Source: Brevundimonas sp. (lineage in GTDB: Bacteria; Pseudomonadota; Alphaproteobacteria; Caulobacterales; Caulobacteraceae). Taken from it: DNA of 64,000 nucleotides. The notes under the pieces were generated by a model. The model was not told the DNA's origin. It did not search any database and saw only the letters and a list, made by a program, of their open reading frames with translations. A program made the translations under genes and the position numbers. The stretch spans positions 155,656 to 219,655 of the forward strand of contig NZ_JACESA010000005.1 in NCBI RefSeq assembly GCF_013912065.1, in the 5' to 3' direction. Every line of letters begins with the position of its first letter. Positions within the stretch are counted from its first letter, which is position 1. Below, one piece after another: positions 34,471 through 44,955 of the stretch.

Positions 34471-37464
34471 TTAGAAGGAGTAGCGCGCGCCGACCTGGAA
34501 GGTCCGGGTCGGGAACAGCACGCTGCTCGGGTTGCCGAACCTCGCCGAGGTCGTGCTGCCGTCGAAGCCGCTGTAGTTCTTGAAGTCGAAGATGTTGATG
34601 GCGTCGACATAGAGCTGCAACTCGCCCGCGCCACCCATGTCCAGATTCTTGGTCAGACGCAGATCCAGATTGCGATAGGCGAAGGCGTTCGGAATGAAGA
34701 AGTTCTCCTTCTCCGGATAGGCGCCGTACGGGCGGAAGTAGAAGGTCGATTCCGAGCCGTCGAAGACGTTGAACGGCGTGCCCGACCCCAGGGTCAGGAT
34801 GCCCGACAGCTGGAAGTCCAGCGGCAGGTCGACGATGCCGTTGGCGACGATCCTGTGCCGCTCGTTGTTGGCCGAGTTCCGCATGGGCGAGCTTTCGACC
34901 GAGAAACAATCGAAGCAGAAGTTGTCGTTGCCGCCATTCTGCTGGGAATCCGACAGGGTGTAGGCGATGTTCACGCCCCAGCCGGAGTCGCGCGTGTAGG
35001 GCTTGTCCAGCTTGACGTAGAGGGCGGTGAACTCCCGCTCCTTGTTGTGATCCGACACCAGGTAGGAGCGATATGGGTTTGCGGCGCCCGGCCCGCAGAA
35101 GCCGCCGTTGTCGCCGAAGCCGTCGCCGTCGTTACCGTAGTTGGGTTCGCGGCAACGGTTCAGATACTGCCAGGTGAACTCGTTCTCGGTCTTGCCATAG
35201 GCTAGGGTGAACTCGGTCTGCCAGTCGCCGATCCGTTGACGAACGCCCAGATTGAACTGGTCGGTGCGCGGCGGCTCATAGTCGTTCTTCAGCAGGAAGG
35301 CTTCGCCCTTGGCGGGAATGGTCGCCAGCAGCGCGTCCAGGCCTTCCGTGGTCATATAGGACGGATCCCACAGGAACGGATTGGCCGAGCTGCCGTCCTG
35401 CACAGCCCCGGGCGTGGTCGTGAAGAAGGCGTTCTTGGAGTTGTCGAACGGCTTGGCGATCTCGTCGAAGGCGAAGTTGAAGTTCACCCGGTCGTAGTAG
35501 CGGCCGGCGCCGCCAAAGATCACCGTCCCGCGATCGCCGAAGACGTCGTAGGAGAAGCCGATGCGCGGCTGGAAGGCGTTGGCGAACGGATCGCGGTTGT
35601 CGCCGGTCGAGATATAATCGTCGATGTTGAACCAGCTCGGCGCATAGCCGGCCGGCTTGCCGCCGTCGGTGGAGGCGATCCACTGGTTCAGTCCGTCGAC
35701 GACCGACTGGGGCGTCACATAATCCGGGTTGCTGGCGTTGTCCTCATAGTCCCAGCGGATGCCGAGGTTCAGCTCCAGCTTGTCGGTGATCTGCCAGTCG
35801 TCCTGGATGTAGACGCCATAGACCTTGTTGGTCAGATCGACGGTCGGGAATGCATTGCCCAGCTGGACCCGATACGGCACCGAGGCGTCACCGCTGGCGC
35901 CCCCGTCGATGTCATAGAAGAACTCGGGATTGCGACCGAACTCCTTCTCGACGTGATAGTCCTGGTTGGAGAACTTCACGCCCATCTTGATGGTGTGGAA
36001 GCCGTTGAATTCGATGTCGGTGAAGGTCAGGTCGTTGCGGAAGGTGACAGCCTCGTCGGTGATGTCCTGACGCGTGCTGGCGCCACCGATGTTCAGGATC
36101 GCCGCGCCGCCGAACGGGTCGTACTCGTTGTCAAACACCCGATAACTGGCGCCCGGCGTATCGAAATTGGCCGCTGTCGGATTGTAGTTGTAGTTCCGGT
36201 AGTCGATGGCGAACTCGTTCAGGAAGCCCTGACCCTGCCACTGATAACGCAGGTTGGCGCTCTTGGTCGTCTGCTGCAGCCCCGTTGCGCGTTCAGCCGT
36301 GTTGGCGCCGCCCACATTGGTGACATCGCCCTCGTCCCGATAAGTGACGCTCAGATCGATGAGATGACCTTCGGCCGGTTGGAAGCTCAGCTTTCCGAAA
36401 TAGAGATCTTCTTCAAACGGCGTTGCCACGGTGCCGAGGTATTGCGCGAATTGCTGCTGATATTCCGGATCTTGACGCCCCAGGTTGACCGTCGCCGCAC
36501 GGTTCTCTTCTTTGTGCTCATAGCTGCCGAAGAAGTGCAGACGATCCTGAATGATCGGTCCGCCCAAGGCTGCGCCATACTGCTTGACCGTCAGATCGGC
36601 CTTCTCCTCGTTGCGCCTGTCGGCGAACACGTCCTGGGTCACCATGCTTTCATCACGATAGGTGCCGAACACCTCGCCATGGAACTCGTTCGTGCCTGAC
36701 CGGGTCACGGCCGTAATGATTGCCGAAGACGCCTGCTCGTACTCCGCTTTGAAGTTCTGGCTGACGACGCGGAACTCCTGGATCGCAGCCTGCGGGAAGG
36801 GATTGCCGCGGCTATCGTCCTGACCGGCGATGCCGCCGGCGATGATGTTGGACTTCAGACTAGCCCCGTCGATGAAGGCATTGACCGATTCGGCGCGTTG
36901 ACCGCCGGCCGAAATGGTGACTTCAGTTTCGTTCTGAGAGACCCGAACGCCAGGCGCCAGGGCGGCGAAGTTCAGGAAGTTGCGGTTGATCTGCGGCAGC
37001 GTCTGAATCTGCTGGGTCGTGATATTGGTGGCGCTCTCCGGGGTGCGGACTTCCGCCAAGCGGCGCCCGACGACGACGATTTCGCCCAACTCCGACGCGC
37101 CGGCTTCGGCGGTCGTCGGCGCCGCGACAACTAGATCGAGGCTGCCGACCTGACCCACACCCACAGACACTGTGTCCGTGGCCGTATCGCCGTCCGCCGT
37201 GGTCACCGTCACCACATAGGTGCCGGGACGAAGGCCGGACAGGGTGTAGCCCCCTTGGGAGTTCACCGTCGCGCGGTTGGTGAAGCCCGAGTTGACGTCG
37301 CGCGCGACGACGACGGCTCCGGCCTCAGCCTGGCCCCCATCGGTGACGCTGCCGCGAATGGTCGAGGTCGCGACCTGCGCCGAAGCGGCGCCGGCGAAAG
37401 CCGCGGTGATGGCGAATGCGGATACGGCCGCTAGGGCCGCGCTACGGGTATTGAACTTGATCAT
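34471..37464 (-). CDS. TonB-dependent receptor with carboxypeptidase-like N-domain (Oar-like)
   Basis: 997 residues. A signal peptide ending ASAQ is followed by a carboxypeptidase regulatory-like beta-sandwich (IRGSVTDGGQAEAGAVVVARD...GGYTLSGLRPGTYVVTV). The plug domain contains LGEIVVVGRRLAEVRTPES (TonB-box region), INRNFLNFAALAPGVRV and INAFIDGAS-type sequence. A 22-strand barrel ends with the terminal aromatic TFQVGARYSF. It imports glycans or oligosaccharides across the outer membrane with TonB energy. The gene follows the lacI gene by 46 bp and precedes the GH144 and ABC genes, so it is the outer-membrane entry of the glycan locus. Confidence 0.93.
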   Translation of the reverse strand: MIKFNTRSAALAAVSAFAITAAFAGAASAQVATSTIRGSVTDGGQAEAGAVVVARDVNSGFTNRATVNSQGGYTLSGLRPGTYVVTVTTADGDTATDTVSVGVGQVGSLDLVVAAPTTAEAGASELGEIVVVGRRLAEVRTPESATNITTQQIQTLPQINRNFLNFAALAPGVRVSQNETEVTISAGGQRAESVNAFIDGASLKSNIIAGGIAGQDDSRGNPFPQAAIQEFRVVSQNFKAEYEQASSAIITAVTRSGTNEFHGEVFGTYRDESMVTQDVFADRRNEEKADLTVKQYGAALGGPIIQDRLHFFGSYEHKEENRAATVNLGRQDPEYQQQFAQYLGTVATPFEEDLYFGKLSFQPAEGHLIDLSVTYRDEGDVTNVGGANTAERATGLQQTTKSANLRYQWQGQGFLNEFAIDYRNYNYNPTAANFDTPGASYRVFDNEYDPFGGAAILNIGGASTRQDITDEAVTFRNDLTFTDIEFNGFHTIKMGVKFSNQDYHVEKEFGRNPEFFYDIDGGASGDASVPYRVQLGNAFPTVDLTNKVYGVYIQDDWQITDKLELNLGIRWDYEDNASNPDYVTPQSVVDGLNQWIASTDGGKPAGYAPSWFNIDDYISTGDNRDPFANAFQPRIGFSYDVFGDRGTVIFGGAGRYYDRVNFNFAFDEIAKPFDNSKNAFFTTTPGAVQDGSSANPFLWDPSYMTTEGLDALLATIPAKGEAFLLKNDYEPPRTDQFNLGVRQRIGDWQTEFTLAYGKTENEFTWQYLNRCREPNYGNDGDGFGDNGGFCGPGAANPYRSYLVSDHNKEREFTALYVKLDKPYTRDSGWGVNIAYTLSDSQQNGGNDNFCFDCFSVESSPMRNSANNERHRIVANGIVDLPLDFQLSGILTLGSGTPFNVFDGSESTFYFRPYGAYPEKENFFIPNAFAYRNLDLRLTKNLDMGGAGELQLYVDAINIFDFKNYSGFDGSTTSARFGNPSSVLFPTRTFQVGARYSF

Positions 37465-37510
37465 CCTGGTGTCCCCTCCTGATGGGCCCGATCTGTGACG
37501 GCGACGCCGT

Positions 37511-38575
37511 TCAATCGGGGTTTGACCCGGCGGTTGAAGCCGCCGCGGTGGATTGTCGTTCGACCAGAACCGGCCGGACGATTTCGCAAGCGGCGTCGGC
37601 GTCGGCGTTGGGGCCGGCCTGGACGAGGCCGATCAGGCGTTCGACGCCCCTTCGGCCCATCTCCGCGATATTCACTCTGAGCGTGGTCAGGGTCGGCCGC
37701 ACCAGGGCGGCCAGGGGCACGTCGTCGAAGCCGACGACCGCCACATCCTCCGGACAGCGCAGCCCGGCCTCCTGGAAGGCCAGCAGGGCGCCCAGGGCCA
37801 TCATGTCGTTGGCGGCGAACACGGCGTCCGGCCGCGGCTCCAGCGCCATCAGCCGGGTCGCCGCCCGGTGGCCCGCCGCCTGGGAGAAGTCGCCCTCGAC
37901 GATGATCGGCTCCTGGTCGACCAGGGCGCTGGCGTAACCCTCGGCGCGAATCTGGGCTTCCAGGTTGCCGGCGGCGCCCCGGATATGGGCGATGCGGCGG
38001 CGGCCGGTGGCGATCAGATGCTGGACCGCGGTTACGGCGCCGCCGTGATTGTCGACGGCGATCGACGGCCGACCGGTCTCGTCCATCCCGCCGTTCATGA
38101 CCAGAACGGGCGTCCGCCCCGCGACGTCGGCGGCCAGGTTGGCGGCGCGCACATGGGGGGACAGGACGATCATCCCGTCGACCCGTCCGCGCATCGAACG
38201 CAGGGCCGCCAGGGTCTCCTCGGTGTCGCCGTGCGAGCTGGAGACGATCAGGTGTTTGCCGTGGGCGCGGGCGGCCAGGTCCATGCCGCGTATCAGTTCG
38301 GAAAAGAACTCGCCGAACAGGTCGGGCAAGATGACGCCGATGGTGTCGGTCCGGCTGGTGGACAGGCTGCGCGCCCCCACGTGCGGCACGTAGTGCAGGA
38401 AATCGACCGCATCGAGCACGCGACGGCGCGTGGTTTCCGTGATGGCGTCGGACCCGTTCAGCACGCGCGACACCGACGCCACGGACACCTGGGCCCGTTC
38501 CGCGACGTCGCGGATCGTGGCGGCCTTGGCGACCGGCGAACGTCCGTTCGCGGATGATGGGGCGACGATATCCAA
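37511..38575 (-). CDS. LacI-family transcriptional regulator
   Basis: 354 residues. The helix-turn-helix and hinge occupy residues 19-70: ATIRDVAERAQVSVASVSRVLNG (positions 19-41). A periplasmic-binding-protein-like effector domain follows: TIGVILPDLFGEFFSELIRGMD, and DAVFAANDMMALGALLAFQEAG plus VAVVGFDDVPLAALVRPTLTT. It presumably represses the receptor and glycan genes until a breakdown product binds. A palindrome of LacI type (ATGTAATCGGTTACAT) lies 58 bp upstream. Effector and exact targets are inferred from position. Confidence 0.94.
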   Translation of the reverse strand: MDIVAPSSANGRSPVAKAATIRDVAERAQVSVASVSRVLNGSDAITETTRRRVLDAVDFLHYVPHVGARSLSTSRTDTIGVILPDLFGEFFSELIRGMDLAARAHGKHLIVSSSHGDTEETLAALRSMRGRVDGMIVLSPHVRAANLAADVAGRTPVLVMNGGMDETGRPSIAVDNHGGAVTAVQHLIATGRRRIAHIRGAAGNLEAQIRAEGYASALVDQEPIIVEGDFSQAAGHRAATRLMALEPRPDAVFAANDMMALGALLAFQEAGLRCPEDVAVVGFDDVPLAALVRPTLTTLRVNIAEMGRRGVERLIGLVQAGPNADADAACEIVRPVLVERQSTAAASTAGSNPD

Positions 38576-38803: not shown

Positions 38804-38850
38804 CTACTACATCTGGTGGCGCGCCCCACAGGAACGCCGTAATGTAGTCG
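38804..38850 (+). promoter_or_regulatory. Candidate pair of NrdR boxes
   Basis: The first box, centred between 38811 and 38812, contains CTACATCTGG and fits the NrdR core C-w-A-t-A-T-a-T-w-G at the strongly conserved C, A, A, T, T and G. The second, centred at 38842/38843, contains CGTAATGTAG and is weaker. The centres are exactly 31 bp apart, three helical turns, as in known NrdR box pairs. ACTACAT (38806) and ATGTAGT (38842) also form an inverted repeat. They lie 26-70 bp before the NrdJ-like start codon. Confidence 0.45.
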
Positions 38851-38875: not shown

Positions 38876-41536
38876 ATGCGCTTTCAATCCGGCTTCGTCG
38901 CCCGCGCTCGGCGGGTCATGATGGAGACCCGCGCCATCGAGCGCGCCGCCACGATCCATGAGGTTCAGGCGCCGACGGCATGGTCGGACGCGCGGATCGA
39001 ATCCTGGCTCGACTGGTGCGAAACCCTGTCGCTCGCCGCCTCGCCGACCGGCGACGTACTGAACGGCGGCGTGGACGCCTGGGCCGAACGCCTGGCCGCC
39101 AAGGGTCTGGCCGAAAATGTCTTCGCCGACCCGGCCGAGGCTGAGGCTTTCGCCGCCGAACTGGCGGCGACCGTCTGGCTGGGTCTCGCGGCTCCGGCCG
39201 GATCGACCGTCTCCGCCCAGATCGTCAACCTGTCCGATCCCGCCGCCCAGACGCGGCTGGCCGAACACAGGGCCGACCGCATGACCGCGCGACTGGCGCT
39301 TCAGTCGGCCGAGACCCTGGCGGACGCCTTGCGCGCCGTCGCCGACGCCGTGGATCGCTGTGAGGGACCGCACGGCGACTGCAGCGATCCCTCGCGCAAT
39401 CCCGCCCTTGGTCGCGCGGCCGCCACCGCGCGCCGGCGCGGCGCGACCGACGCCGACATCCTGCGCGCCGTCGACGGCGAACGGCCCGCCCTGGCCCTGC
39501 GTCCCTTCGACGAGGGCGCGCCCCTGGTCGCCCTCGCGTCCAGGACCCAGATCGCCGCCGGCGCGCCCGAGGCCCTGCTGGCCGCCGAGGCCGCGTTGGA
39601 CGGCGGCCTGATCCTGACCTTCGATCCGCGCGACGCCGAGGTCCTGGCCGAGCCGGCCTTCAGCGGCGCCGTGCTGGATCTGTCGGCCCTCGCCGCCCTG
39701 GAGAATATCGAGGGCATCGCCGGGACCTTCGACCTTCTGCCCGATCTGGTGCGGCTCTGGATCGTGGCCCTCGATCTCCAGGGATCCGGCGCCGTCGTCG
39801 CCCTGGGTCTCGAGGGTCTGGCTCCTGCTCTGGCCCCGGCTGACGGCGACCTCAGTGCGCGCGCCGAAGCGGTCGCGGCCCTGGTCGCCGCATCGGCGGC
39901 CCAGACCTCGGTCGAACTGGCGCGGCTGCGCGGCCCCTGCGCCGAATGGGACGGCCTGAAGAGCCAGTTGGCCGATGTCGACAAGGCCCGCCGCAACCGG
40001 CTGAAGACCAATGCCGATCCCCTCTCCGTTGTCGCCGCCAAGGCGTCCGTCAAGACCGCCGCCCCTCGCCGCCACGCCGCGATCGGCCTGTTCATCGACG
40101 ACGCCGAGGCGCGGTTGCGCCTGGGCCTGGGCGCTCCCTCGGTTCTGGATGTCTTCCAGACCGCCGACGGCGAGATCGGCCGACGTCTGTCTCCCTGGCT
40201 GGCGCGGGTCCTGACCGGCGCGGGTGGAGACGTCCAGGCCGCCGAGCGGCGGCTTTTCGGACGCCGCACCCTGGTCGAGGCGCCCGGCGTCGACCATGCC
40301 GCCCTGCGCGCCTTCGGCTTCACCGACATCGAACTGGCGGCGGTCGAACAGGCGCTGGCCTGGGCCGACGGCTTCGACGCCGTCTTCGCCGCCCCCGTAC
40401 TCGATCCCGGCTTCATTCGCGATGTGCTGGGGCTGGAGGACGGCGACGGCCCCCTGCTGAATCTGCTGGGCGTGCCCGAGGAGGCCGAGGCCGAGGCGGC
40501 GCGCTGGGTCTTCGGCTGCGGCGACCTGAAGGACTGGCCCGAGGCGCCGCCCGCCGTCGCCGCCCTGCTGGCTGAGCCCGCCTTGCTGGAAGCCGAGTTG
40601 CGCCTTGCGCTGGAGCCGTTCAGCGACGTCCCCGACACGAGCGCCGAGATCCTGGACTGGCGCGCGACCGCCGCCCAGGCCGCCCGCCGCCTCAGCCAGG
40701 CCGCCGGCGAGGGCCGACGCGCGATCCGCCTGCGCCGCGCGGCCCCGCCGCCCGGTCCCTTGCTGACTCTGCCCAAGACGGATTCGGCGCCGCGCTTCGA
40801 CACGCCTCGTTCACCAGCCGTGGCGCAACCTGTCGCGCCGCCGACCGAACGGATCGTCGAACGCGTTATCGAACGCGAACGGGCGCGGCGCAAACTGCCG
40901 GACCGGCGCAAGGGCTATATCCAGAAGGCGGCCGTCGGCGGCCACAAGGTCTATATCCACACAGGCGAATACGAGGACGGCGAGCTCGGTGAGATCTTCA
41001 TCGACATGCACAAGGAAGGCGCCGCCTTCCGCAGTCTGATGAACAATTTCGCCATCGCCATCTCCATCGGCCTGCAATACGGCGTGCCGCTGGACGAGTT
41101 TGTCGACGCCTTCGTCTTCACCCGGTTCGAGCCGGCTGGACGCGTCACCGGCAATGACTCCATCCGTTCGGCGACCTCGATCCTCGACTATATCTTCCGC
41201 GAACTGGGCGTCTCCTATCTGGACCGCGACGAACTGGCCAACGCCGGGCCCGAGACCCTGAATGCAGACGGGCTGGGCGATGGGAAACCCGACGAGGGCG
41301 AGGCCGTGCCGGCCGCCCGCTTCATCTCCAAGGGGTTCGCCCGCGGTTCCGCGCCGGACAATCTGGTCGTCCTGCCCTTCGGCAAGAAGGCCGAGCCCGA
41401 CGCCAAGGTCGCGGCGGCCACCGAGGCGGTCGCCTGCCCCGCCTGTGGCGACTTCAGCCTGCAGCAACGCGGTCACGCCTGGGTCTGCGACACCTGTGGA
41501 GCGTCGCCGGCGCTTCAGGGCGGGGATCAGGGCTAA
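38876..41536 (+). CDS. Degenerate class II ribonucleotide reductase paralogue (NrdJ-like, TSCPD domain)
   Basis: 886 residues. The end is unmistakably Nrd[28 protein letters not shown] and the following TSCPD domain (about 675-785), then a zinc ribbon CPACGDF...CDTCGAS (854-875). Earlier segments align in order with Nrd[19 protein letters not shown] (161-178), [14 protein letters not shown] with KARRNR (351-374), and [24 protein letters not shown] (468-491). The catalytic barrel is eroded: the NPCSE motif with the thiyl-radical cysteine is replaced near 255-275 by an Ala/Leu-rich stretch, and the total length is about 300 residues short of typical NrdJ (about 1200). It cannot be a normal reductase. 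A regulatory or structural role is inferred; no described function is known to me. Confidence 0.8.
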
Positions 41537-41591
41537 GTTAACGGCTGGGGCCTAGACTGTCTCGATGCGACGCCTTCGCTGGAGCGACCCG

Positions 41592-42086
41592 ATGTCCCGC
41601 CTGACCGCCCTTTCCTTCGCCCTCGCCGTCCTCGCGACGGCCGCCACGCCCGTCCTGGCCCAGAACGCGGGTCAGATCGCCTCTGTGAAACGCGGCGCCT
41701 CCTGCCCGGGCTGCAATCTGTTCCAAGGCGACTTCTCGGGACTTGAGGCGCGCGGACTGAACCTTTCCGGCGCCCGCCTGCGTCAGGCGGATCTGAGCCT
41801 CAGCGTCATGAACCGCACCCGGTTCTCGAACGCCGACATGCGTGATGTCGAGGCCTATGGCGGCGTCTTCTCCAGCTCGAACTTCTCGGGGGCCGACCTG
41901 ACCAACGCCGGCTTCGTCGGCGCCTATCTGCAGGGCGCGGCCTTCTCGGGCGCGAACCTGACGGGGACCAACCTCTCCGGCGCCAACCTGTCGCGCGCGA
42001 CCGGCCTGACGCAGCCCCAACTGAACCGGGCATGCGGAGACAGCTCGACCGTCCTGCCGGGAAACCTACGTATTTCCGCCTGCTGA
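41592..42086 (+). CDS. Exported pentapeptide-repeat protein 1
   Basis: 164 residues from the ATG at 41592, with GGAG 7 nt upstream. A signal peptide (LSFALAVLATAATPVLAQ) precedes a CxxC (GASCPGCNLFQGDFSG). Pentapeptide repeats of A(D/N)LxX type follow (LNLSGARLRQADLSL to SGANLTGTNLSGANLSRA), forming a right-handed quadrilateral beta-helix. The C-terminal segment NRACGDSSTVLPGNLRISAC carries two more Cys. The same CxxC and CGDxST..LPG..L..xAC pattern occurs in the next gene, so the two are paralogues. The location is periplasmic; the function is unknown. Confidence 0.85.
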   Translation: MSRLTALSFALAVLATAATPVLAQNAGQIASVKRGASCPGCNLFQGDFSGLEARGLNLSGARLRQADLSLSVMNRTRFSNADMRDVEAYGGVFSSSNFSGADLTNAGFVGAYLQGAAFSGANLTGTNLSGANLSRATGLTQPQLNRACGDSSTVLPGNLRISAC

Positions 42087-42137: not shown

Positions 42138-43061
42138 ATGGCGGGGCTTTCGGGGCATTCAGACTGGGTGAAACAGATTGCTCGCCACACACCGTTCTCT
42201 CTTAAGGTCTCCCTGATCGCTACGGCTGGACTGCTGCTTGCCGGCCCCGCCTTCGCCGGGGTGGAGATGACGCTTCAGGATCGCGATGTCGCCCGTTCGG
42301 TCTCCCTGGGCGGATCCTGCAACCGCTGCGAACTGTCGGGCCGCAATCTGTCGGGCGCCACCTTCACAGGCGCCAGCTTCATCAACGCCACCCTGGTCGG
42401 CGCCAATCTGCGCGGCGCCGAGATGGTCGGCTCCAACTTCACCGGCAGCGATTTCAGCCGCGCCAATCTGGCGGGGGTCGAGATCGTCGGCGCCAACCTG
42501 ACCTCGACCAATTTCACCTCTGCCGTCCTGACGGGGGCCGAGGCCCAGGGCTCGTCGTTCGTCCGCGCCAATCTGAGCCGCGCCGACCTGTCGGGCGCCG
42601 AACTCCACGGCGTGAACTTCAACGGCGCGACCTTGGCGGGCGCCGATTTCTCGGAGAGCGAACTGTTCGGCGCCACCCTGGCCAACGTCCATGCCGTCGG
42701 CGCCAACTTCAGCGATGCGGAGATCAACGCCTCCAACCTGTCGGGCGGCGACTTCTCCGGCGCCTCGTTCCGCGACGCCAGTCTGGACGGCGCCCGCCTG
42801 ACCGGCGGAACCTTCGCCCGCGCCGACTTCAATGACGCGTCGCTGCGCCGCACCGACATCCGGGGCGCGGACCTGTCCAGCGCGCGCAACCTGACGCAGG
42901 ACCAGATCAGCGAGGCGTGCGGCGACGGCTCCACCCGCCTGCCAGGCCGCCTGACGGCCCACGCCTGTCGCGGATCCATCCGGGTGATCCGCACCCCGCC
43001 CGCGCCCCCTGCGCCGCCCGCCCCGCCGCGCGTCCGCAACTTCGCCAGCGCCGAACACTGA
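42138..43061 (+). CDS. Exported pentapeptide-repeat protein 2
   Basis: 307 residues from the ATG at 42138; a GTG at 42168 would give a cleaner signal peptide (VKQIARHTPFSLKVSLIATA). The mature protein has GGSCNRCELSG, then about 36 pentapeptide repeats in one long beta-helix (residues 65-255), and the capping segment ISEACGDGSTRLPGRLTAHAC shared with the upstream paralogue. A Pro-rich tail (TPPAPPAPPAPPRV) follows. It is roughly twice as long as its neighbour, suggesting repeat expansion after duplication. The 51-bp gap between the genes is AT-rich and may hold a promoter. Confidence 0.85.
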   Translation: MAGLSGHSDWVKQIARHTPFSLKVSLIATAGLLLAGPAFAGVEMTLQDRDVARSVSLGGSCNRCELSGRNLSGATFTGASFINATLVGANLRGAEMVGSNFTGSDFSRANLAGVEIVGANLTSTNFTSAVLTGAEAQGSSFVRANLSRADLSGAELHGVNFNGATLAGADFSESELFGATLANVHAVGANFSDAEINASNLSGGDFSGASFRDASLDGARLTGGTFARADFNDASLRRTDIRGADLSSARNLTQDQISEACGDGSTRLPGRLTAHACRGSIRVIRTPPAPPAPPAPPRVRNFASAEH

Positions 43062-43122: not shown

Positions 43123-44955
43123 TCAGACCTTGATCGGCGGCGCCGTGCGGATGTGCAGTTCCTTCAGCTGACGCTCCTGCACATTGGCCGGGGCGCTCAT
43201 CAGCAGGTCCTCGCCCTGCTGGTTCAGCGGGAAGGCGATCACCTCGCGGATGGCCTGCTGACCGGCCAGCAGCATGACGATCCGGTCGATGCCGGGGGCC
43301 AGGCCGCCGTGCGGCGGGGCGCCGAAGCGGAAGGCGTTCAGCATGCCGCCGAACTGCTCCTCGACCACCGAGGCGTCATAGCCGGCGATCTCGAAGGCCT
43401 TCAGCATGATCTCGGCCTTGTGGTTCCGGATCGCGCCCGAGCACAGCTCATAGCCGTTGCAGACGATGTCGTACTGATAGGCGCGGATGGTCAGCGGATC
43501 CTGGTTTTCCAGCGCCTCCAGCCCGCCCTGCGGCATCGAGAAGGGGTTGTGGCTGAAGTCGACCTTCTTCTCTTCTTCAGACCATTCGAACATCGGGAAG
43601 TCGACGATCCAGCAGAATTTGAACTGGTTCTCGTCGATCAGCTTCAGCTCCGTTCCCACGCGGGTGCGGGCCAGGCCGGCGAACTTGGCGAAGACCGAGG
43701 GCAGGCCGGCGACGAAGAAGGCGGCGTCGCCCTGGCCCAGACCCAACGAGGCCATCAGCGCCTCGGTCGGTTCCTGCCCCAGGTTCTTGGCGATCGGGCC
43801 GCCCCAGGCGCCCTGGTCCTCGGACCAGAATATATAGCCCAGGCCCGGCTGGCCCTCTCCCTGCGCCCACGAGTTCATGCGGTCACAGAAGGCGCGCGAT
43901 CCGCCGGTCGGCGCCGGGATCGCCCAGACGGCGTTCTTCTCGTCGGCGCCCAGGATCTTGGCGAACAGGCCGAAGCCGCCGTCGCGGAAATGGTCCGACA
44001 CCACCTGCATCTTGATCGGGTTGCGCAGGTCCGGCTTGTCCGAACCGTACCAGGCCATCGACTGGGCGTAGGTCAGGCGCTCGAACCCCTTGTGCTCGAA
44101 GGTCTCGCCGAAATCGTTGGTGAAGGTGTGGACGCCGTCGATGGGCGACACAGGCTTGCCCTCGCCGAACTCCTCGAACACGCCGTGCATGACGGGCTCG
44201 ATGGCGGCGAAGACGTCTTCCTGGGTCACGAAGCTCATCTCGACGTCGAGCTGGTAGAATTCCAGCGACCGGTCGGCGCGCAGGTCTTCATCGCGGAAGC
44301 AGGGCGCGATCTGGAAATAGCGGTCAAAGCCCGACACCATCAGCAGCTGTTTGAACTGCTGCGGCGCCTGCGGCAGGGCGTAGAATTTCTCGGGATGCAG
44401 GCGCGACGGCACCAGGAAGTCGCGCGCGCCTTCCGGCGACGAGGCCGTCAGGATCGGCGTCTGATATTCCAGGAAGCCCTGGGCGAACATGTGGTTGCGG
44501 ATCGACTGGATCACCCGCGAACGCAGCACGATATTCTTGTGCAGGGTCTCGCGGCGCAGGTCGAGATAGCGGTGCTTGAGGCGGATTTCCTCGGGATATT
44601 CCGGCTCGCCGAAGACCGGCAGCGGCAGTTCGGCGGCTTCCGACAGAACCTCGACGCCCTGGACGCGGACTTCGATCTCGCCGGTCGGCAAGTTGGGGTT
44701 CACCACGCCGGCTTCACGGGCGACCACTTCGCCGTCGATCTTGATCACGCTCTCGGCGCGCAGACGCTCCACTGCGGCGAAGCCGGGCGTCTCGGGGTGC
44801 AGCACCAGCTGCGTCAGGCCGTAGTGATCGCGCAGGTCGATGAACAGCAGGCCGCCGTGATCGCGCTTCCGATGCACCCAGCCGGACAGGCGGACGGCGG
44901 AACCGGCGTCGGAGGCGCGCAGGGCGCCGCAGGTATGGGAGCGGTAGGCGTGCAT
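43123..44955 (-). CDS. aspS: Aspartate--tRNA ligase, probably non-discriminating
   Basis: 610 residues of bacterial-type AspRS. The N-terminal OB-fold anticodon domain contains [26 protein letters not shown]. The class II motifs include [48 protein letters not shown] (motif 2), and [13 protein letters not shown] (motif 3). The GAD insertion is present. His33 in RDHGG matches the residue linked with non-discriminating AspRS enzymes that charge both tRNA-Asp and tRNA-Asn; discriminating enzymes such as E. coli have Leu there. With gatB and gatCA in the same window this suggests indirect Asn-tRNA synthesis. Confidence 0.96.

Follow-up and report, generated by a model that had tools for sequence, protein, structure and literature searches.

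Not every descendant of a ribonucleotide reductase (RNR) reduces nucleotides. Betaherpesviruses have dead RNR large subunits, which lost catalysis and were kept for another job. The protein described here is likewise RNR-derived and appears to have lost catalysis, whereas the viral proteins belong to class I and carry other domains. Among class II enzymes, P. aeruginosa has a split form, NrdJa-NrdJb, in which the small NrdJb conserves the C-terminal module of NrdJ and contributes redox cysteines to NrdJa, the catalytic partner for which it works (PMC4520616, PMC5704485). This module combines IscU-like and zinc finger domains (PMC9669993); according to that paper, no function had been reported for the first of these in class II C-termini. 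By its place before the zinc finger, this IscU-like domain would be the one named TSCPD. In the NrdJ of S. nassauensis, C920, C923, C936 and C939 are proposed zinc ligands, C933 and C945 forming the redox pair, according to Loderer et al. (PMC5704485). Finally, CCNA_01966 of Caulobacter crescentus is listed as NrdJ, together with NrdE and NrdB, in PMC6538847, where dNTP production is counted as a use of B12, and it is named a vitamin B12-dependent RNR in PMC5869019.

The window analysed here, i.e. the whole stretch of 64,000 nucleotides from Brevundimonas sp. (assembly GCF_013912065.1, contig NZ_JACESA010000005.1), carries a relative of these enzymes at 38876..41536 (window positions are used throughout, on the forward strand unless stated otherwise). 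From an ATG start the frame runs for 886 residues with no internal stop, and is as long and intact as an earlier note on this DNA had described it. The closest counterpart is the alphaproteobacterial class II NrdJ (NF005736/PRK07562; R. sphaeroides structures 7b9p and 7b9q), with which the protein shares near-full-length collinearity and, within the order, genomic place; it differs in being about 350 residues shorter, with catalytic and redox segments gone. Compared with NrdJb, it is without the redox pair, it retains a remnant of the barrel, and the genomes checked show no alpha-type NrdJ core beside it. We call ‘gutted’ the relatives without the catalytic motif. In the open-access literature that was searched no prior description of this form was found, which is not proof of absence.

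A collinear descendant of NrdJ

Pfam recognizes a sole domain above cut-off, TSCPD (PF12637, 39.7 bits against a gathering value of 22.8, residues 687-777). The alphaproteobacterial NrdJ model NF005736 gives 315 bits over four stretches, under its cut-off of 1737 (an intact control, L210, scores 1948 bits), and phmmer searches of the PDB returned no significant match with the full 886-residue protein or its tail as query. The fetched loci comprise 107 gutted ones, with 104 distinct proteins, and 98 intact ones, with 88, a few being duplicates of one genome. Profiles of the gutted relatives and of intact NrdJ (100 and 96 proteins thinned to 69 and 50 rows, with exclusion of L019, L020, L138, L144 and L202, which are long or have a variant motif) aligned over 852 columns with an E-value of 7e-183, collinear from the N-terminus to the zinc ribbon. 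Chance does not account for such a match, which extends well beyond the final 210 residues, so that the order-preserving alignment with NrdJ claimed at first reading is confirmed, its CEG..C.DP..NPAL and APG..HAALRA.GFTD motifs being collinear. When the window protein was combined with 23 gutted relatives, the resulting profile also matched the R. sphaeroides NrdJ structure (E 1.6e-55, profile positions 116-592) and T. maritima NrdJ (E 6e-7).

Residues 1-625 (38876..40750) would make a truncated, diverged remnant of the RNR barrel: an RNR-barrel-like fold is predicted there with mostly good confidence, and all 50 structures among the matches listed for the model of the window protein are RNRs. 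The earlier note had the barrel core replaced by Ala/Leu-rich sequence; active-site segments were indeed lost, but by deletion, and what is left is diverged and still predicted to fold as a barrel. The near-invariant TSCPD domain covers residues 671-786 (40886..41233). It precedes a motif similar to the SKGF.RG of intact NrdJ (residues 817-829, 41324..41362) and a zinc ribbon (residues 854-874, 41435..41497) made of C854, C857, C871 and C874, without the other two cysteines of intact tails. Retention of TSCPD and ribbon, proposed from the outset, therefore holds.

Active-site and presumed redox cysteines are gone

Deletions were placed on an intact NrdJ, L203, where ACFI is found at 198, GGG at 247 and NPCSE at 474. 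In the Caulobacteraceae profile, L203 residues 155-276 and 470-478 are absent. In the window protein, the 122 residues of the first segment, with the ACFI cysteine and GGG, are missing at a junction after residue 110 (39203..39208), and alignment puts the lost NPCSE...TACN cysteines at approximately residues 248-265 (39617..39670). Elsewhere the limits are different: Maricaulaceae-type gutted proteins lack 198-263 and 476-488, those of family f3 lack 480-488, and four f2 relatives (L197-L200) align with intact NrdJ from their residue 342 on, their N-terminal half lying outside the mapping.

Fourteen cysteine columns are conserved at 90% or more in the 50 intact rows; eight of them belong to the core, the other six to the tail. 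The core columns, including those of ACFI, NPCSE and TACN, are each occupied in 48-50 of these rows; in the gutted set of 69 rows, all eight stay under 15%. A search for NPC.E in the gutted proteins found none, with one SPCGE at another place in relative L007, and loss of the NPCSE thiyl cysteine, first read from the window alone, is thus borne out. That misalignment had masked the catalytic cysteines was considered and rejected: apart from C162 and C169, in the CEG motif, no non-tail cysteine column reaches 15% in the 69 gutted rows. As for the tail, all 88 distinct intact proteins have six cysteines, and 91 of the 104 distinct gutted ones exactly four, the remaining 13 being without a ribbon in their final 75 residues (L053, among these, sits at a contig end). 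The four zinc cysteines are kept in 63 of the 69 gutted rows, and the two that are missing match by position the C933/C945 redox pair, as proposed in PMC5704485. A protein emptied in this way would no longer reduce nucleotides.

Two variants deserve a record of their own. In several gutted proteins, mostly of genus g14 (L119, L123-L126, L128-L131, L141 and L143, together with L052, named Asticcacaulis), the zinc ribbon is lost and the chain stops shortly after the ISKGF motif, TSCPD being kept. Genome G328 (L202, L144) has an otherwise intact NrdJ of 2003 bits, where SPCSE replaces NPCSE.

It might be asked whether the gutted protein is still an enzyme, endowed with a new active site (C162...C169, for example) or with residual RNR activity. 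The predicted fold is confident; C162 is present in 52 and C169 in 50 of the 69 gutted rows, within a segment (CEG..C.DP..NPAL, residues 161-200, 39356..39475) that is among the better conserved parts outside TSCPD, and the two cysteines could possibly form a new metal or disulfide site. However, neither the core cysteines nor the redox pair are kept, residues that are invariant outside TSCPD are few, and the strict C162-C169 pattern is missing in 50 of 105 gutted loci, which makes a surviving enzyme very improbable. In the intact loci of the order the CEG...C.DP motif is rare (2 of 45 by pattern, some loci being duplicated).

Alternatively, the remnant may be a decoy or a dominant-negative regulator, binding and restraining another RNR through old subunit contacts. 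The predicted structure of residues 1-625 is indeed still that of an RNR-like barrel, and the C-terminal cysteine-rich domain of a class II enzyme has been implicated in oligomerisation (PMC5704485). Against this, the barrel-tail segment evolves fast, and a second NrdJ-type enzyme is not seen in many of these genomes. Furthermore, deleted segment 155-276 contains the stretch with which T. maritima NrdJ builds its effector site and dimer interface; its loss argues against dNTP binding as well. We consider a decoy improbable, if somewhat less so than a persisting enzyme.

Intact and gutted genes occupy the same place

Of the 199 Caulobacteraceae genomes, 188 have a match, as do 73 of 75 genomes of genus g22, and none of the 199 carries a full-length alpha NrdJ reaching the NF005736 cut-off, the best score being 426 bits. 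Over the order the cut-off is passed in 52 of 249 genomes, all from families f4 and f5. Among the matches listed, 62 genomes (49 of f5, 13 of f4) have a best match of at least 1172 bits and the next genome has 407, a gap which indicates that the two forms are discrete. The intact gene belongs to one sampled family and part of another, and the gutted gene to others, including Caulobacteraceae (protein sequences of f2, f3 and f4 come from fetched loci only). Ten genomes of the order had no match at E 1e-20. Searching 48 of the 62 intact-type genomes with the TSCPD of the window gave a match in 47, always inside the intact gene of the genome itself, except that one piece of the TSCPD region of G256 lies just beyond the end of that gene, in a different frame. 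No genome that was checked carries both forms.

The neighbourhood is shared too, the names of the genes (NDUFA12-like, pentapeptide-repeat, aspS) being putative. In loci with enough flank, an NDUFA12-like gene is upstream in 39 of 40 gutted, 7 of 13 order-intact and 20 of 40 other intact cases. A pentapeptide-repeat gene follows within 1.5 kb in 27/33 gutted, 14/15 order-intact and 0/41 other intact loci, and aspS is downstream in 27/33, 5/15 and 5/41, respectively; the gutted synteny counts include L079, a fragment of an intact gene. The window is the sole one of these 40 gutted loci without the upstream NDUFA12-like gene, and keeps only the conserved downstream neighbours, i.e. the pentapeptide-repeat gene found next to intact and gutted genes of the order (41565..42086) and the putative aspS, for aspartyl-tRNA synthetase (43123..44955, reverse strand). 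On its upstream side a local rearrangement is visible, with what are presumably a TonB-dependent-receptor-like gene and a LacI-type regulator (34471-38575) in place of the usual NDUFA12-containing block. The two pentapeptide-repeat proteins downstream (41565-42086 and 42138-43061) have a C..C motif near their N-terminus.

In a tree made from TSCPD only (191 rows thinned to 123, after exclusion of 12 intact rows without the anchor motif), all gutted rows group with the intact rows of the order (support 98/88), with two label changes, three Maricaulaceae-type intact genes falling among the gutted with low support. In a tree of 445 columns and 59 rows, hand-chosen for spread, 35 of 35 gutted rows are on one side of a single branch (100/100), which favours one origin of gutting, long-branch attraction being a possible confounder. 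Several independent guttings were considered and set aside, the two changes of the TSCPD tree having low support next to the single 100/100 split of the longer alignment. The simplest history would be that of one gutting in place, with convergence after relaxation as an alternative. The earlier note spoke of a paralogue. This did not survive: intact and gutted genes exclude each other in the genomes checked, no Caulobacteraceae genome reaches the NrdJ cut-off, and synteny and trees concur in making the gutted gene the positional orthologue of alphaproteobacterial nrdJ.

Selection bears on the TSCPD domain

Against the closest relative (L005), dN/dS is 0.23 for the gene, 0.37 for residues 1-400, 0.15 for residues 401-640 and 0.07 for TSCPD. 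With 12 relatives the ranges are 0.27-0.65, 0.15-0.68 and 0.05-0.24 for the same three regions (Nei-Gojobori estimates, the larger of which saturation and codon bias make uncertain). Purifying selection operates mainly on TSCPD, and is weaker on the barrel remnant and zinc ribbon. That the gene is kept by selection, as first suggested, agrees both with these values and with its presence across Caulobacteraceae. In this context a functionless, decaying relic is hardly credible: to be sure, much of the sequence diverges rapidly and some genomes lack the gene, but frames are long and open in the relatives fetched, TSCPD is near invariant across several families, and dN/dS stays under 0.7 in every region and pair measured, so that this reading is already contradicted by rate data.

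The domain itself did not relax when catalysis was lost. The TSCPD of the window (116 residues) is 80-86% identical to those of five intact genes (86% for two of f4, 80-82% for two of f5 and one Pseudooceanicola). Scaled to AccC, its rate is 0.42 in gutted and 0.41 in intact lineages, the barrel-tail segment having 5.26 and 1.68; scaled to AspS, the values are 0.32 and 0.43 for TSCPD, 3.84 and 1.61 for the barrel-tail (the pairs behind these ratios are non-independent). The barrel-tail segment is therefore 2-3 times faster in gutted than in intact lineages. Had TSCPD served the active site alone, it should have relaxed; that it has not suggests a separate job, apart from catalysis. A reverse case is found in G356, of family f4, where the locus L178 (1207-3912) codes for a class II RNR of 901 residues with full core and six-cysteine tail, and where a query with the TSCPD part of the window protein found no TSCPD domain in the genome. 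This suggests that TSCPD is dispensable for catalysis.

A putative operator shared with reductase genes

Upstream of the gutted gene are two putative NrdR-box-like sites, CTACTACATCTGGTGG (38804..38819) and CGCCGTAATGTAGTCG (38835..38850), both with C4 and G13 present, separated by 31 bp from start to start. This pair is weak (score 30 out of a maximum of 48, z 3.0 against shuffles, for spacings of 31 or 32 and an assumed box consensus) and falls below the thresholds of 32 and 34 used for counting; a similar pair is found in relatives L005 and L006. The family speaks more clearly. Among unique upstreams of gutted genes, 44 of 82 have a pair scoring at least 34, compared with 28 of 84 for intact genes and none of 215 upstreams of neighbouring genes (aspS, aat, aroQ, accC and mlaD-like; 5 of 215 reach 32), with a Fisher p of 4e-30 for gutted versus neighbouring genes when related loci are counted as independent. 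A ‘random’ control gave 17 of 246 at score 34, its windows possibly overlapping gutted promoters themselves. Spacing in gutted upstreams peaks at 32. Among pairs that reach a score of 32, 47 of 54 have T at position 13 of box 2, where G is canonical. The geometry matches that described in PMC9110341, namely two NrdR boxes separated by about three turns of the helix and carrying the conserved G/C pairs 9+18 and 40+49. The other 38 gutted upstreams stay below 34, including the window and all 11 Maricaulaceae-type gutted loci tested, among which no pair scores 32 or more. NrdR is encoded in this genome (176.6 bits, cut-off 124.65), where nrdA is preceded by a strong pair (score 35, z 6.3). Control of the gutted gene by an NrdR-like regulator is therefore supported, from sequence, at the level of the family.

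This operator weighs on another way to account for the constraint, that TSCPD moonlights outside nucleotide metabolism, for instance as an IscU-like scaffold or an oligomerisation module, the gutted gene merely carrying it. Constraint on TSCPD unrelaxed after catalysis was lost would fit, as would the Asticcacaulis-type tails, where the zinc ribbon proves losable and TSCPD stays. However, about half of the gutted genes keep a tandem NrdR-like operator, which ties them to RNR regulation, and prediction does not confirm the link to an IscU-like fold: the model of TSCPD alone is weak (mean pLDDT 61), its best PDB match has an E-value of 0.48, none being at or below 0.001, and IscU entries rank 10th and 26th, their E-values exceeding 1. 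Moonlighting thus appears unlikely, while being the most serious of the competing readings.

A probable pseudoenzyme beside NrdAB

Which reductases might the gutted protein accompany? The earlier note had pointed to a full-length nrdJ and to nrdAB as genes to look for. An alpha-type nrdJ is not there; NrdA (L003, 629 residues, 1013 bits for a cut-off of 620) and NrdB (L223) are encoded elsewhere in the genome, together with an intact class II enzyme, NrdJ_Z (L002, 753 residues, 544 bits for a TIGR02504 cut-off of 400). NrdJ_Z is likewise class II with a TSCPD domain of its own, but belongs to a different subfamily, has NPCGE, exceeds the TIGR02504 cut-off and has no NrdR-like pair upstream (score 23, z -1.1). 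A search for PF02867 in 51 Caulobacteraceae found only two pieces in 38 of them, which is the pattern given by NrdA alone in this genome. A Pfam search at E <= 0.1 found no ATP-cone in the NrdA and NrdB of this genome, so that the usual overall-activity switch seems absent. NrdB is encoded by 245 of 249 Caulobacterales genomes, whether or not the gutted gene is there, and being near universal it makes co-occurrence no pointer to NrdAB. The gene is dispensable in G049, G066 and genus g31, which are without it and keep NrdB; from some genomes, such as seven of genus g31, TSCPD is wholly absent.

The earlier note had proposed an allosteric partner, decoy or regulator of the true enzyme; the operators seen at family level leave the gene in an RNR setting, but the true enzyme would then be NrdAB, and in this genome also NrdJ_Z. 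The account that we prefer, with about even chances of being right, is that of a non-catalytic protein, probably still coregulated with RNRs, which would work through its TSCPD domain, most likely to assist or regulate dNTP supply alongside NrdAB. Within Caulobacterales, nrdJ would have lost its catalytic segments and the cysteines of its redox tail, leaving the barrel remnant as a carrier for TSCPD, the partner or ligand of which would be the same in intact and gutted lineages, independently of the reductase active site. Since about half of the gutted genes keep the tandem NrdR-type operator, expression probably goes along with that of the RNRs, and dNTP supply is the most likely field of action. 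The protein might then be an accessory or regulatory subunit, or a scaffold, either for class I NrdAB itself or for the machinery of its assembly or redox supply, the identity of this partner being the least certain step. A more general proposal, which we put forward tentatively and hold to be less probable, is that TSCPD is a separate regulatory device of dNTP metabolism, Caulobacterales having dropped the reductase and kept the device, still under NrdR-like control, to govern or serve NrdAB. The gutted lineage, with TSCPD kept, and G356, with its core kept and TSCPD lost, make a natural two-way test.

These considerations bear on a familiar model organism. In the C. vibrioides control, the NF005736 match is below cut-off (a cut-off that no control genome passes, the positives being the 52 genomes of the order), and PF12637 is above its own. 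This match, and the matches found in nearly all genomes of genus g22, which its tree neighbours indicate to be Caulobacter, make it very probable that CCNA_01966 is the gutted form. If so, the dNTP use of B12 falls away in this organism unless another B12-dependent RNR is present, and the C. crescentus gene offers a genetic handle on the role of TSCPD. If our preferred account is true, the family of Caulobacter carries a dedicated, RNR-derived pseudoenzyme regulator that is annotated as a B12-dependent reductase.
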